Shown here piece by piece: positions 12,401 to 28,403 of a DNA stretch of 28,550 nt. Every line of letters starts with the position of its first letter. Position 1 is the stretch's first letter. The position numbers were made by a program, and so were the translations under genes. The notes under the pieces were generated by a model. That model ran no database searches and was not told the DNA's origin. It worked only from the letters and a program-made list of their open reading frames with translations. Origin of the DNA: a virus; the IMG/VR virus record IMGVR_UViG_3300030085_003258, positions 1 through 28,550 of that record; one strand, written 5' to 3'.

Positions 12401-14704
12401 CTCACATTTAACTCTAGTAGCAAAATCTACTACAGGAGTACGAATGACTTCCATTTTTGCAGCATCGCCCGCAACTACACTGACAGGACCCACTACATAA
12501 TTTACATTTTCAGTGATGATCTCTGGTGGGAAGAAAATGTCAGTTGTGCCTTCGGGTTCTTTTTCCTTAGGACCAAACCTAATTTTAAGTCTAGTAGTAT
12601 TGAGAATTTCTGATGTACTAGGAAGATTTTTATATGGAAATTTGTTGTTATTAAAATCAGATGATGATCTATAAATTGAAGCAGTATATGTTACATAAGG
12701 AATAGTAGCATCAGAAGGAATTCCTTCATCAGCAGCAATACCCATTCCTGCTGCTTGAGTAGTTTGAACATCCTGTTCTTCTTTAGGAGCTTCAGCAACT
12801 AAAGTAGGAACTGATACCGTAGCTTCACTTTGCCCTTTATCAAAAATAACTTCCTCAGAAAAAATTACAGTTTTTCTTCGTGGAAATTGCTGCTGATATT
12901 TTTTCTTCTTCTTCTTCGGCACTTTACCAAATTTTACGTCTGGTAAAGTAGCACCCCTCTCCAAATCACCACCAGACGTAAGACCTTCAGTAATACCAAC
13001 AACTCTAGCAGTATCATCTGGTCTCAAATATGCAGTAAAAATAATCACACCTCGGTGTTCAACACTATTTCTTCTGATTTTTAATTTATGAGTTTTACCA
13101 CTCTTAACAGTTTCCTTCTTAGGGAAAATCATGTACTCTGAATCATGCCTATCATCTTCTTTTCCGATGATGACAGCATATGTTGAACATGAAGAGTATG
13201 GACCTTTGTCACCAGGGACTGCTGGTATGCATTCTGAACCGTCTCCATTTTTTCCGTCGCCAAGATTATTACAGAAGTCAAATACATTAGATACTTTCGA
13301 TGCAGCAACATTAGTTGCTGTGGTAAATGCCCTTCTTAACGCTTGATTATCTGTGGAAACTCCAGGAACATTTGCTGTACCAAGATCAACACCTTTGGCA
13401 AAGTTTGCTGCCTCTGCATTTGCTTCAGCGGTAGACTTATTAATATCATCTGTCAAACTATTGATACCGCTCAATCCACTGTCGAGACTTTTTTTAATAC
13501 CTGTCGTCAGACCAAACTCACCAGGGTTGTTAAATGCAGTGACGAGAGCATTAGAAGCGTCAGTTGCACATTCTCCAGCACCGCCACAACTAATTCCTAG
13601 GAAGTCTAATACAGCATTAATTGCTTCACCCAGGAGATTACCAAAACCACCAATGATACCAGCAATAGATTCAATGGCACCCATGATACTCTCAATAAGA
13701 CCCAGGACTTCTCCCATAATCTCATTAAGAATACCATCAACTAATGTATCCAAACAACCAAATACACTACTAACTGCTGAATCTACAAGTGTATTCAGCA
13801 TATCTTCAATAAGATTACTAATTAATCCTTCAATATTACCAAAACTACAGAACACCATATTGAGAACTTTCTCAATGGTCTCATTAACTGTTGATGTGAT
13901 GCCCTTAATTGGCACCATAATCAACTTTACTAATTGATCAATAGCTTTTCTAGCATATTTGGTGATGATTGCTTTAACCCAACCAATTCCACTACGAATA
14001 ACACCAGTAATAGAGGCAAGATACTTTTGAATATATCCTGTCATGGAGAATAACTCTCCAGTTATACCATTAACAAACTTAGACCCGATTTTGCCATCAG
14101 TGTCCTGAACAATCTTCAAGAAATCGCCAATAAATGCTCCGATGTCTGATGATAATGATCCACTATCACCACACTTATCAGCACCCTTAATACTTTCACC
14201 ATTTTCAGGAATCTTAGATGCTTTTGTGACAACCTTGAAGCAACCGTTATCTCCTTGAATAGCACTCTTATTTTCTTTAAGAGGTTCTACAAGTTGAGCA
14301 GCAATATAAGGAGATGTTTGATCAAAATTTTCTTGCTTTCCTAAAACTGGATGCTTTGCCTTATGTGCAGATGCAATTACAGGACTGCTATAGTCTGGAC
14401 CTTCAAATCTAACAATAACAAATTGACCTTTGCCATACTGCCTAACATTATTATTTCTAATTGCACTATTTGCAGTTTCAGTTTGAATAGAAGGAATCCA
14501 AGGAAGTGCTGCTTTTGCTACTACATCTTCCTCACAATTCTGTTCATTAATATCACAATATCCATGAATAGCAGGACATCTAACCTGATAATATCCCCCA
14601 CCACCTTCTGACTTGACGCTAGTAATCCACCCAAGCATGGTAGTGCCTGCTTTGGCAAGTTCTTTACCTTGATATGATATGTTTTTTGAAAAGTCTGTGT
14701 TCAT
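9458..14704 (-). CDS. gp5-like baseplate hub protein, giant multidomain form (1748 aa)
   Basis: The N-terminus (about 20-120) resembles the OB-fold of T4 gp5: LGWITSVKSE, ALPWIPSIQTETANS, and a VRFEG strand. About 260-380 is a long run of hydrophobic, Gly-rich amphipathic helices. About 735-835 looks like a Calx-beta domain (EGILTFGPGENKKIFSIPTY). About 905-1005 looks Ig-like (SYEWQRS, EYYRCVITA). About 1410-1545 carries five Cys-rich repeats of form C-x4-DCP-G-x-C-x-G-x-C, split by an Asp-rich DPDDDPDDDPDDDD linker. The C-terminus has Gly-rich beta repeats. No lysozyme catalytic region is seen, unlike T4 gp5. It overlaps the upstream gp27-like gene as TGATG, matching the gp27-gp5 partnership in T4. 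The hub assignment is likely; the extra domains may form peripheral decorations or adhesins. Confidence 0.65.
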   Translation of the reverse strand: MNTDFSKNISYQGKELAKAGTTMLGWITSVKSEGGGGYYQVRCPAIHGYCDINEQNCEEDVVAKAALPWIPSIQTETANSAIRNNNVRQYGKGQFVIVRFEGPDYSSPVIASAHKAKHPVLGKQENFDQTSPYIAAQLVEPLKENKSAIQGDNGCFKVVTKASKIPENGESIKGADKCGDSGSLSSDIGAFIGDFLKIVQDTDGKIGSKFVNGITGELFSMTGYIQKYLASITGVIRSGIGWVKAIITKYARKAIDQLVKLIMVPIKGITSTVNETIEKVLNMVFCSFGNIEGLISNLIEDMLNTLVDSAVSSVFGCLDTLVDGILNEIMGEVLGLIESIMGAIESIAGIIGGFGNLLGEAINAVLDFLGISCGGAGECATDASNALVTAFNNPGEFGLTTGIKKSLDSGLSGINSLTDDINKSTAEANAEAANFAKGVDLGTANVPGVSTDNQALRRAFTTATNVAASKVSNVFDFCNNLGDGKNGDGSECIPAVPGDKGPYSSCSTYAVIIGKEDDRHDSEYMIFPKKETVKSGKTHKLKIRRNSVEHRGVIIFTAYLRPDDTARVVGITEGLTSGGDLERGATLPDVKFGKVPKKKKKKYQQQFPRRKTVIFSEEVIFDKGQSEATVSVPTLVAEAPKEEQDVQTTQAAGMGIAADEGIPSDATIPYVTYTASIYRSSSDFNNNKFPYKNLPSTSEILNTTRLKIRFGPKEKEPEGTTDIFFPPEIITENVNYVVGPVSVVAGDAAKMEVIRTPVVDFATRVKCETIQDNTLTFPAEEGTHYMGGEGILTFGPGENKKIFSIPTYTDGGLINATKTFKVKFTDELLPEGTGSNLGGLGKKNGTTKVGEGIERQVVINFSTDFKPSPVCEAEILLSSEPITCLVQEEGIPLNIGFVAKTSVPGYTLSYEWQRSYDPTGDTIVAPNVIWTPVSDGVRNETIDEKVTTFGPSGITVGGTTIDKWSTSTVAQSASITYSGATTNRLKVEQPSYLIMDEEYYRCVITATPTTPSAFTPVLTYTTKPTYVGITKDGVYSSTVNCAPAGTLDDGDVISYSDTTDATPAGLGASFELYENYKPRMTAESVPGEELTAKFLEDGTGIKISGDVGQGSVKLRFEWDDDPDRSGLAVGKLFVAGKTFKQKKEKGSVEKTIFVNAGQTYLFQYKGQDPGASGAPGMKQPTVISKGQVVKWDDNRANGFDENARLTIMKVTGNESIIKTKRINDFEAGFYPKAAGEFAQHTYGSAFNWADLNDSYQGDFDLVGGDGTGLRVRARFEAFPGAGGNPNNTRYTILQILNAGENYAVGNELSFPDQGGYSFSAMGELVKLLTVDFSVPPSAGLCDIVEPNDPKDIPEDVPDDDPDDDCAIVRKMLKEDPKSLTYMEKKKGYWKDKNDKEYFCPDEDLVPVIECTVDKDCPEGQICVNGECVPDPAPECTVDTDCPKGYVCLNGKCVKDDEIIDPPDDPDDDPDDDPDDDDKPDPSECKIDDDCPEGQVCVDGKCVIPCSLDKDCPEGYVCVDGKCVKACTVDSDCPSGQICVDGKCVPEDDGDDEEDTVTDPAPRPPSTPVIVGRGGGVISVPIPDELRDCKVRYKQPPLVAISGLGTGAIAKSELDENGCLVNIVVKSKGIGYTPNIDEAGECGILTEILLTNVGGYYESSPTVYVNGDPTIAFAAIQDGKLAEIRITNPQNIVYDQLPDIRIRGANGFGGSAQPVIEFVPCDEVADRYLRVVNKYNESTIGTVFIVDCP
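10072..10477 (-). repeat. Five Cys-rich coding repeats within the gp5-like gene
   Basis: Five near-identical units of about 20 codons each encode CTVDKDCPEGQICVNGECV-type modules, each with four Cys in the same spacing. The order is two units, an Asp/Pro-rich spacer, then three units. The recurring DNA pattern ACACACTTACCATCAACAC shows duplication at the nucleotide level as well. Confidence 0.9.
10278..10313 (-). repeat. Three exact tandem 12-mers encoding a Pro-Asp-Asp-Asp linker
   Basis: TCATCATCAGGA occurs three times in a row on the plus strand, with a fourth diverged partial copy. It encodes repeated Pro-Asp-Asp-Asp between Cys-rich units two and three. Such exact short tandems change copy number easily, so linker length may vary among relatives. 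Confidence 0.9.
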
Positions 14705-26828: not shown

Positions 26829-27021
26829 CCTTCTTGTTAAAACCAAAGGGTCCTTCTTTCTCTTCAAGTTTCAGTCGCAATGCAACTGTACCGATGGACT
26901 CAAGGACTTTTAGGATGTCCTCTGCCCTGGCATCTTCACCAAGTTCTTTGGCAACGTACCAATACTTTGGCCAGAAGGACTCACCTGCCTTCTCGTAGTC
27001 TTCAACGGTCAGTAGTTTCAT
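26797..27021 (-). CDS. Small hypothetical protein (74 aa) coupled to gp32
   Basis: The ATG overlaps the gp32 stop as ATGA (27018-27021), a strong sign that it is translated with gp32. The protein is acidic and helical: LLTVEDYEKAGESFWPKYWY, then ARAEDILKVLESIGTVALRL, then a Lys/Glu-rich tail. In T4 the gene near gp32 is the helicase loader gp59 and, further on, the late co-activator gp33; this protein is too short for gp59 and lacks features I associate with gp33, so no name is given. Position next to gp32 points to a replication or late-transcription accessory role. Confidence 0.75.
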   Translation of the reverse strand: MKLLTVEDYEKAGESFWPKYWYVAKELGEDARAEDILKVLESIGTVALRLKLEEKEGPFGFNKKDEEVPTTDPQ

Positions 27022-27986
27022 TCTTCCTCAGCAAGGCGGGCAAAGTAGGACAGGGTATCATCATCGTCAGTCGTAGGAGCAGGACGTGATGCAGCAGTCG
27101 GTTGAAGGTTGTTCAGTTCTTCCTTCATGGCATTAGGCATGGGACGGGGAGGGACACTGAACTTAGGTGCTCCCATGATGTCAGCATCATTGAAACCACC
27201 GCGACCTTCGGACTCATCTTCCAGAGTCTCACGATCAAACTTCTGCTTCTGACCACGACCCAGAACGACATTCAGACGTGAATCAAGTTCCTCATAGGAC
27301 TTGAAGTTCTTAGCATCCATAAACTCACTCAGAGAGTGCTGTGAACGCCAAACCTTTTCAAGTTCAGCATCAGTCATGTCCTCAAGAGTAGAAGGTGCAG
27401 CGAAGTCAGACTTATCGTAGTTCCAATAACCATCCTTCTTCTGCAGTTTCAGTTTGAAGTTGGCACCCTGCCACAGATCAAAGGGATTGATCGGAGTCTC
27501 ATCTTGGAACTCAGGTTGCATTGCTGCCTGAATCTTGTCAAAGATCTTCTTACCGAACTTGTAGAGGAAGACCTTGCCTTCGTTAGAAGGATTAGAAGGG
27601 TCACTCACAACATAGATGTTGGAGTAGTAGGACAGTTTACGCTTCTGCTTACGAGCGACCTCCTTGTCGCTATCAAGACCACTGTTCCACAGTGTACGGT
27701 TCAGTTCCGACACGGGATCTTTCTTACCCAGAGTGGTCAGGGAGTTTTCAATATACCATCCACCAGGACCTTGGAAACCATGTGACCAAACCTTTGCCCA
27801 GGGAAGTTCTTCGCCTTCAGGTGCAGGCAGGAAACGGATTACCGCAAAACCGTTGCCAGACTTGTCCATCTCGGGTTTCCAGAAACGATCATCACTGCTA
27901 CCACCAGTAGCTTGGAGCTTGTCAATCTCCTTGGTCAGACGATCAAAACCAAACTTGGAGCTGTTCTTAAGATCAGCAAAAGACAT
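27018..27986 (-). CDS. gp32: Single-stranded DNA-binding protein gp32 (322 aa)
   Basis: Coats single-stranded DNA in replication, recombination and repair. The N-terminal basic part (about 1-30) precedes the DNA-binding core: FAVIRFLPAPEGEELPWAKV, WSHGFQGPGGWY, RKQKRKLSYYSNIYVVSDP, NEGKVFLYKFGKKIFDKIQA and NPFDLWQGANFKLKLQKKDG, all in T4 order. KQKRKLS corresponds to the T4 KRKTS (LAST) motif. The C-terminus ends acidic (TTDDDDTLSYFARLAEEE), the protein-interaction tail. The T4 zinc ligands are absent: there is no Cys in the protein. The ATG at 27986 has GAGG seven bases upstream. A predicted pseudoknot in the leader suggests translational self-control as in T4. Confidence 0.93.
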   Translation of the reverse strand: MSFADLKNSSKFGFDRLTKEIDKLQATGGSSDDRFWKPEMDKSGNGFAVIRFLPAPEGEELPWAKVWSHGFQGPGGWYIENSLTTLGKKDPVSELNRTLWNSGLDSDKEVARKQKRKLSYYSNIYVVSDPSNPSNEGKVFLYKFGKKIFDKIQAAMQPEFQDETPINPFDLWQGANFKLKLQKKDGYWNYDKSDFAAPSTLEDMTDAELEKVWRSQHSLSEFMDAKNFKSYEELDSRLNVVLGRGQKQKFDRETLEDESEGRGGFNDADIMGAPKFSVPPRPMPNAMKEELNNLQPTAASRPAPTTDDDDTLSYFARLAEEE

Positions 27987-28058
27987 TTGTATTACCTCGG
28001 ATTAGTTGTGTGTGTTGTATTCGTTGGATTGCGATGACCCAACAGGATCATCATAACC
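27987..28058 (-). promoter_or_regulatory. gp32 mRNA leader with predicted H-type pseudoknot and unstructured operator
   Basis: Minus strand, in order: GATGAT (28052-28047) pairs with GTCATC (28038-28033); the loop contains GTTGG (28043-28039), which is complementary to CCAAC (28027-28023) beyond a 5-base linker. This gives stems of 6 and 5 pairs with loops of 3, 0 and 5 bases. A G-poor stretch (GAATACAACACACACAACTA) then leads to GAGG and the ATG. This is the plan of the T4 gene 32 self-regulatory leader. Confidence 0.65.
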
Positions 28059-28065
28059 TATTTAG
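28059..28065 (-). promoter_or_regulatory. Late promoter motif for gp32
   Basis: The minus strand reads CTAAATAGG, an exact CTAAATA, overlapping the stop codon of the DUF1825-like gene. If the start is about six bases downstream, the transcript begins at the foot of the leader pseudoknot. gp32 may also be read through from upstream early transcripts. Confidence 0.5.
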
Positions 28066-28403
28066 AGATCTCCGTCAAGCACTTGCTGGCGAACACTTTC
28101 CATGTTGTCACGAAACTTGTCGTAGATGTCCAGCATGTTGAGACCATCGGCATCCATACCGAGTCTCCTAGCAGCGTCACGGAACTCTTGCTTGAGACGT
28201 ACTGCCATCGGATCGTCAGACAGATTCAGTCTCATGTAGAAGACCTTCTGCCTTTCAATCAAGTCCAGCATAGCATCAAAGAACTCAATACGGTCATCCG
28301 TTTCCATCAAAGGAATGAACGGCAACCGATTGACGATCTCCTGCTGCTTGAGGTTGATCTCCTCAGCTTCTTTTTGTACTATTTCTGATTCAAAGAAAGA
28401 CAT
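28062..28403 (-). CDS. DUF1825-like protein (113 aa)
   Basis: The N-terminus SFFESEIVQKEAEEI resembles the DUF1825 family, small helical proteins encoded by nearly all cyanobacteria, for which I know no firm function. The rest is helical and charged: LMETDDRIEFFDAMLDLIER, QKVFYMRLNLSDDPMAVRLK and a C-terminal DKFRDNMESVRQQVL. Length fits the family (about 105-115 aa). It lies upstream of gp32 in the same direction, with 75 bases between them, and overlaps the end of the preceding frame by 25 bases. Its presence supports a cyanobacterial host and may be a host-acquired gene; a regulatory interaction with host machinery is speculation. Confidence 0.65.
   Translation of the reverse strand: MSFFESEIVQKEAEEINLKQQEIVNRLPFIPLMETDDRIEFFDAMLDLIERQKVFYMRLNLSDDPMAVRLKQEFRDAARRLGMDADGLNMLDIYDKFRDNMESVRQQVLDGDL

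Follow-up and report, generated by a model that had tools for sequence, protein, structure and literature searches.

The gp32 leader in the window, a 28,550-nt stretch from an IMG/VR record that represents part of a T4-like cyanophage genome, carries two overlapping promoters and two alternative predicted hairpins, and each predicted transcript begins at the first base of one of these hairpins. The positions of the promoters and helices, their conservation and their covariation are established by comparison of leader sequences among related phages. We infer from this arrangement that transcription starts at these sites and that the hairpins form, and we hypothesize, as the reading we think is probably correct, that the paired 5′ ends protect the message and, together with an open track downstream, provide the site at which gp32 represses its own synthesis.

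The gp32 gene occupies positions 27018–27986 of the minus strand, on which all features described here lie, and starts with the ATG at 27986 (PF08804, E = 5.7e-45; phrog_224, E = 3.8e-127). It is adjoined upstream by a co-directional gene (28062–28403; phrog_468). Gp33 was considered for this gene and dropped, as a match to PF08855 (E = 2.1e-10) identifies it as DUF1825. The annotations of S-PM2 and S-SM2 likewise place DUF1825, of unknown function, immediately 5′ of gp32. In T4 gp32, zinc is held by three cysteines and one histidine. The three cysteine ligands are lost from the gp32 of the window, as they are from those of syn9, S-RIM8 and S-SM2, which agrees with an earlier reading of the window from sequence alone that gp32 has a changed core; S-PM2 gp32 retains them, as does T4. 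The annotated start of S-CREM1 gp32 (24808) lies 15 codons 5′ of the common start of its homologues (24853) and falls within the leader.

A near-consensus σ70 promoter, TTGACG-N17-TATGAT (28078–28050), precedes gp32 and agrees at 10 of 12 positions with the σ70 consensus TTGACA/17/TATAAT. The −35 element of this putative early, host-type promoter (28073–28078) is located in the 3′ end of the upstream gene, while the −10 element (28050–28055) overlaps the 5′ arm (arm A) of the first hairpin, S1; transcription is predicted to start at 28043, 7 nt past the −10 element. Its spacer accommodates a late-promoter-like box, TCTAAATA (28059–28066), which also overlaps the stop codon of the upstream gene and, judged by sequence, is a putative T4-type late box (TATAAATA or CTAAATA upstream of the start). 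The predicted late start is 28053, 6 nt past the end of the box according to the T4 rule (PMC1524935). The late box of T4 spans −13 to −6; for Aeh1, the published form is CTAAATA at −12 (PMC1524935, PMC2988020). The sequence-only reading was thus right to treat CTAAATA as a form of late promoter, a string that is not over-represented within the window, but it overlooked the σ70 promoter with its early start at 28043. This promoter predicts early 5′ ends inside the pseudoknot that had been proposed for the leader, so that the 5′ arm of S1 would be missing from early RNA.

The σ70 promoter is conserved in relatives: TTGAC-N16–18-TAnnnT or a close variant is present in 406 of 431 gp32 leaders from viral contigs. 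Among 136 representatives drawn from these leaders (≤85% identical over −12 to +30), the spacer measures 17 nt in 127, a G occupies the early +1 position (7 nt after the −10 element) in 116, and TAAATA lies inside the σ70 spacer in 45. On the sense strand of the 178-kb S-CREM1 genome, gp32 alone has a σ70 promoter (TTGAC-N17) whose spacer includes a late box. A cyanophage start-site map for gp32 was not found in the literature searched.

The paired segments described earlier from the window alone are present and extend further than was noticed. A six-pair helix joins GATGAT (28052–28047) to GTCATC (28038–28033) with one G–U pair, and a five-pair helix joins GTTGG (28043–28039) to CCAAC (28027–28023). 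The two are interleaved, with CCT as L1, 0 nt between GTTGG and GTCATC, and GCAAT as L3. The first extends to nine pairs (S1, 28032–28053), in which UGAUGAUCC (28053–28045) and GGGUCAUCG (28040–28032) enclose the loop UGUU (28044–28041) with a predicted folding energy of −12.2 kcal/mol; the second extends to seven (S2, 28023–28043), in which GUUGGGU (28043–28037) and AUCCAAC (28029–28023) enclose the loop CAUCGCA (28036–28030) with a predicted energy of −7.3 kcal/mol in early RNA. The first base of S1 is the predicted late start, 28053, in support of the earlier view that the leader is structured where late transcripts are predicted to begin, and the first base of S2 is the predicted early start, 28043. 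Because the extended helices overlap in their middle arm, they are mutually exclusive. According to these predictions early RNA can form S2 only, and in late RNA S1 would be favoured, or possibly a pseudoknot. Folding of the window leader as a single sequence is not significant (z of only −1.2); on comparative evidence from the leaders of related phages, both helices are clearly beyond chance.

For the early start, a scan of helix starts over all leaders peaks at early +1, where 48% have a helix of −4.5 kcal/mol or lower, compared to about 4–15% at most other positions. When the first five bases were fixed and the remainder shuffled, the early +1 helix gave z = −8.2. In 54 of 136 cases a leader contains the complement of its own first four bases, compared to 14.6 ± 3.3 when leaders are swapped (0/2000), and this result persists at 65% identity (31/76 vs. 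9.6); at other offsets the swap test gave nothing except at +2, which is part of the same helix. The early arms differ widely between phages, with GTGG/CCAC, GTAG/CTAC, GTGA/TCAC, GTGC/GCAC and GTTGG/CCAAC all represented. About half of the leaders, including a large group that starts with GTACAC, have no +1 helix. In leaders of the latter group (such as L149, L164, L136 and L181) no 5′ hairpin is seen; an inverted repeat, AGGTnnnnACCT, is located in the early-promoter spacer, at the 3′ end of the upstream gene.

The late-start helix depends on the late box. A helix of −7 or lower that starts between −2 and +2 of late +1 is found in 35 of the 45 late-box representatives, as opposed to 3 of 91 at matched positions in leaders without the box (p = 5e-20); a looser criterion for S1 gave 38/45 vs. 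31/91 (p = 2e-8), and we judged the energy threshold to be cleaner. With some exceptions, the start of S1 tracks late +1 over spacing classes of 10, 13, 14, 15 and 17 nt, which identifies the late start, and not the early −10 element, as its anchor. This bears on the possibility that the inverted repeat between −10 and +1 acts not in RNA but in DNA, as an operator through which a regulator controls the early promoter. The S1 repeat does extend over both the −10 element and the early start, where repressors classically bind; against this stand its tracking of the late start across spacing classes, its near absence from leaders without a late box and its greater tolerance of G–U than of A–C, and we regard such an operator as very improbable.

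The same distribution weighs against S1 being an RNase E or RNase III processing site in read-through RNA from upstream, from which the gp32 message would be released. Processing is consistent with the co-directional upstream genes, since a search of the window revealed no intrinsic terminator between them and gp32, and with T4, where RNase E processes gene 32 mRNAs at a site 71 nt 5′ of the start codon (PMC3014915). A processing site would be required in leaders with and without the late box alike, but S1 hardly occurs outside late-box leaders, which makes this explanation improbable as well.

Covariation supports S1 as a hairpin. The seven-pair S1 scores 0.338 for covariation in the 13-nt class, compared to 0.246 ± 0.019 in shuffles (0/500), and the true register is the best, with slid registers at or below 0.235. 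A null model simulated on the gp32 protein tree reached the S1 covariation of the corresponding set (0.307) in 1 of 1000 runs, its percentage of paired positions in 6 and its number of double changes in 29 (p = 0.029). One of the 25 rows in the MAFFT alignment (A1) was misplaced and was retained. In the 13-nt class, G–U pairs outnumber A–C mismatches by 25 to 5, a bias expected under selection on the sense RNA; the asymmetry is weaker (22 vs. 9) in a freer count on freely chosen helices, and neither S1 count consists of independent observations, because the covariation cells are related. The same freer count shows no asymmetry for S2 (13 vs. 15).

Does the leader then contain the H-type pseudoknot that had been proposed, and does it act as in T4? 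As a lone feature of a single sequence the pseudoknot is weak and unremarkable: one at least as long occurs in 107 of 3000 dinucleotide shuffles of the 79-nt leader (3.6%) and in 70 of 722 non-overlapping 79-nt windows of this contig (about 10%). Among 25 late-box leaders with two helices, a pseudoknot with trimmed helices is geometrically possible in the window and seven others, and excluded in the remaining 17. Seven of the eight capable leaders belong to the spacing-10 class of the window, which makes the pseudoknot an option in this clade and not the conserved element, so that the sequence-only reading is supported only in part. In syn9, S-RIM8 and many contigs, arm A is GCTAC, arm B GTAGC and arm C CTAC; arm B of this type can pair with A or with C, never with both, and a pseudoknot is therefore impossible. 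In three leaders (L185, L186, L187) there are two copies, near and far, of the arm complementary to the early start (GCAC or CCAC), and only the far copy would permit a pseudoknot.

These observations render doubtful an autogenous operator of the T4 kind, in which an H-type pseudoknot in late mRNA would nucleate gp32 and the spread of the protein over the track would block the ribosome. Arguments for it are that the helices of the window interleave with loops of feasible size, that seven leaders of the spacing-10 class permit the same geometry, and that structure, repeats and ribosome site follow one another as in T4 (PMC535899). Set against these are the leaders that exclude a pseudoknot, syn9-type leaders among them, its frequency by chance, and the lack of compensatory changes in GTTGG/CCAAC among the close relatives of the window, whose S2 does not vary; replacement of the whole S2 helix is seen only in more distant relatives. 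Energy offers the pseudoknot no clear advantage either, as S1 of 8–9 pairs alone is predicted at −12.2 kcal/mol and the window pseudoknot, at a hand estimate of about −8 to −13 kcal/mol that varies with the loop model, comes close to this competing hairpin. Rfam gave no match for the window at gathering or permissive thresholds, and for the T4 leader only sub-threshold chance matches; a model of the T4 operator is thus probably missing from Rfam, and the lack of a match carries no information. In RB49 the pseudoknot has been reported absent.

Downstream of the helices, the G-poor run that had been noted earlier does lead to the ribosome-binding site GAGG (27995–27998) and the gp32 ATG. The track (27999–28022) has AAUMC repeats and is predicted to be unstructured. 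Over the 136 representatives the last 35 nt before the ATG contain 11% G, and at least two AATMC repeats occur in 98 of the leaders; the T4 gene 32 leader has UUAAA (TTAAA-type) repeats at the corresponding place (see also PMC535899). S-CREM1 served as the only whole-genome control. There, gp32 is the only place on the sense strand with at least three AATMC within 40 nt, and the minus strand has four places with three repeats. The gp32 leader of S-CREM1 lacks both start-matched helices and has a G5–C5 hairpin instead. Elsewhere in that genome a helix of −7 or lower accompanies 11% of the other late boxes, and a +1 helix 30% of the other early-type promoters. The occurrence of early-start hairpins beyond gp32 makes it more likely that protecting the mRNA is at least part of their role. 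A further candidate for the arrangement seen at gp32 is the S-CREM1 psbA leader (about 13040–13104), with a 13-pair hairpin from the predicted early start and, adjacent to that start, the late box ATAAATA.

We return to the protective hairpins and self-repression site as the preferred reading, and propose the following model. The host σ70 early promoter and the gp55-type late box in its spacer would both serve gp32. With each start at the first base or bases of a hairpin, the mRNA would have a paired 5′ end irrespective of the promoter, early RNA (from 28043) folding into S2 and late RNA (from 28053) into S1; since the 3′ arm of S1 overlaps the 5′ arm of S2, the full helices would be alternatives, and in the clade of the window late RNA may still fold trimmed S1 and S2 into a pseudoknot. 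The base-paired end would shield gp32 mRNA from decay that depends on the 5′ end. Pairing at the 5′ end is known to impede RppH and RNase E (PMC3997798), and we assume that both enzymes act alike in marine cyanobacteria. In T4, the gene 32 message shows unusual stability, and RNase E cleaves it just 5′ of its structured element (PMC3014915). The 36–45 nt of G-poor, mostly unstructured repeats would link the hairpin to the ribosome site, and hairpin and open track together may be where gp32 coats the leader and represses its own translation.

A further, more tentative possibility is that the leader is an RNA switch set by promoter choice, in which the middle arm has two possible partners, an upstream arm that only late RNA contains and, in early RNA, the downstream arm. 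If so, the change from σ70 to gp55 would alter both the 5′ structure and the length of open track (36 vs. about 45 nt), and mRNA stability or autogenous repression would shift with it.

A review from 2010 called for studies of gp32 autocontrol in diverse T4-related phages (PMC3014915). The comparison over hundreds of contigs shows what cyanophage gp32 leaders have in place of the pseudoknot, namely predicted helices that coincide with the early and the late start and, after them, open repeats. The model predicts the start sites to single-base precision, and autocontrol and mRNA protection in these abundant marine viruses become testable in cultured phages such as syn9.

One close known parallel is the gene 32 operator of T4, T2 and RB69, where in T4 a structured 5′ element is followed by an unstructured repeat track and the ribosome site (PMC535899, PMC3014915). 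The cyanophage leaders share the gene, a leader structure that lies at the 5′ end of the message or close to it (a stable mRNA in the T4 group, predicted ends here) and an unstructured, G-poor track that reaches and overlaps the ribosome site. They differ in that the conserved element is not a pseudoknot, which is possible in some leaders only, but two alternative 5′-terminal hairpins matched to two promoters, and in that the track is built from AAUMCAA and does not conform to UUAAA or UAAA. The arrangement is kept in many related phages and, by analogy with the T4 pseudoknot, could shield or regulate the message. A second parallel is found in stabilising stem-loops of the ompA/papA type, which likewise leave few or no unpaired 5′ bases and whose sequence is free to vary; at both predicted starts, early +1 and late +1, a helix lies at or near the 5′ end. 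Unlike these, the cyanophage leader would, as predicted from its sequence, hold two nested hairpins with a common arm, one per promoter. Overlapping promoters, finally, have been described in RB49, S-PM2 and Syn9, where a σ70 promoter and a late box likewise precede a homologue of a T4 middle gene (PMC2984593); in the leaders of the window type, in contrast, the late box sits within the σ70 spacer, and the predicted starts are 10–17 nt apart, each matched by its own hairpin.
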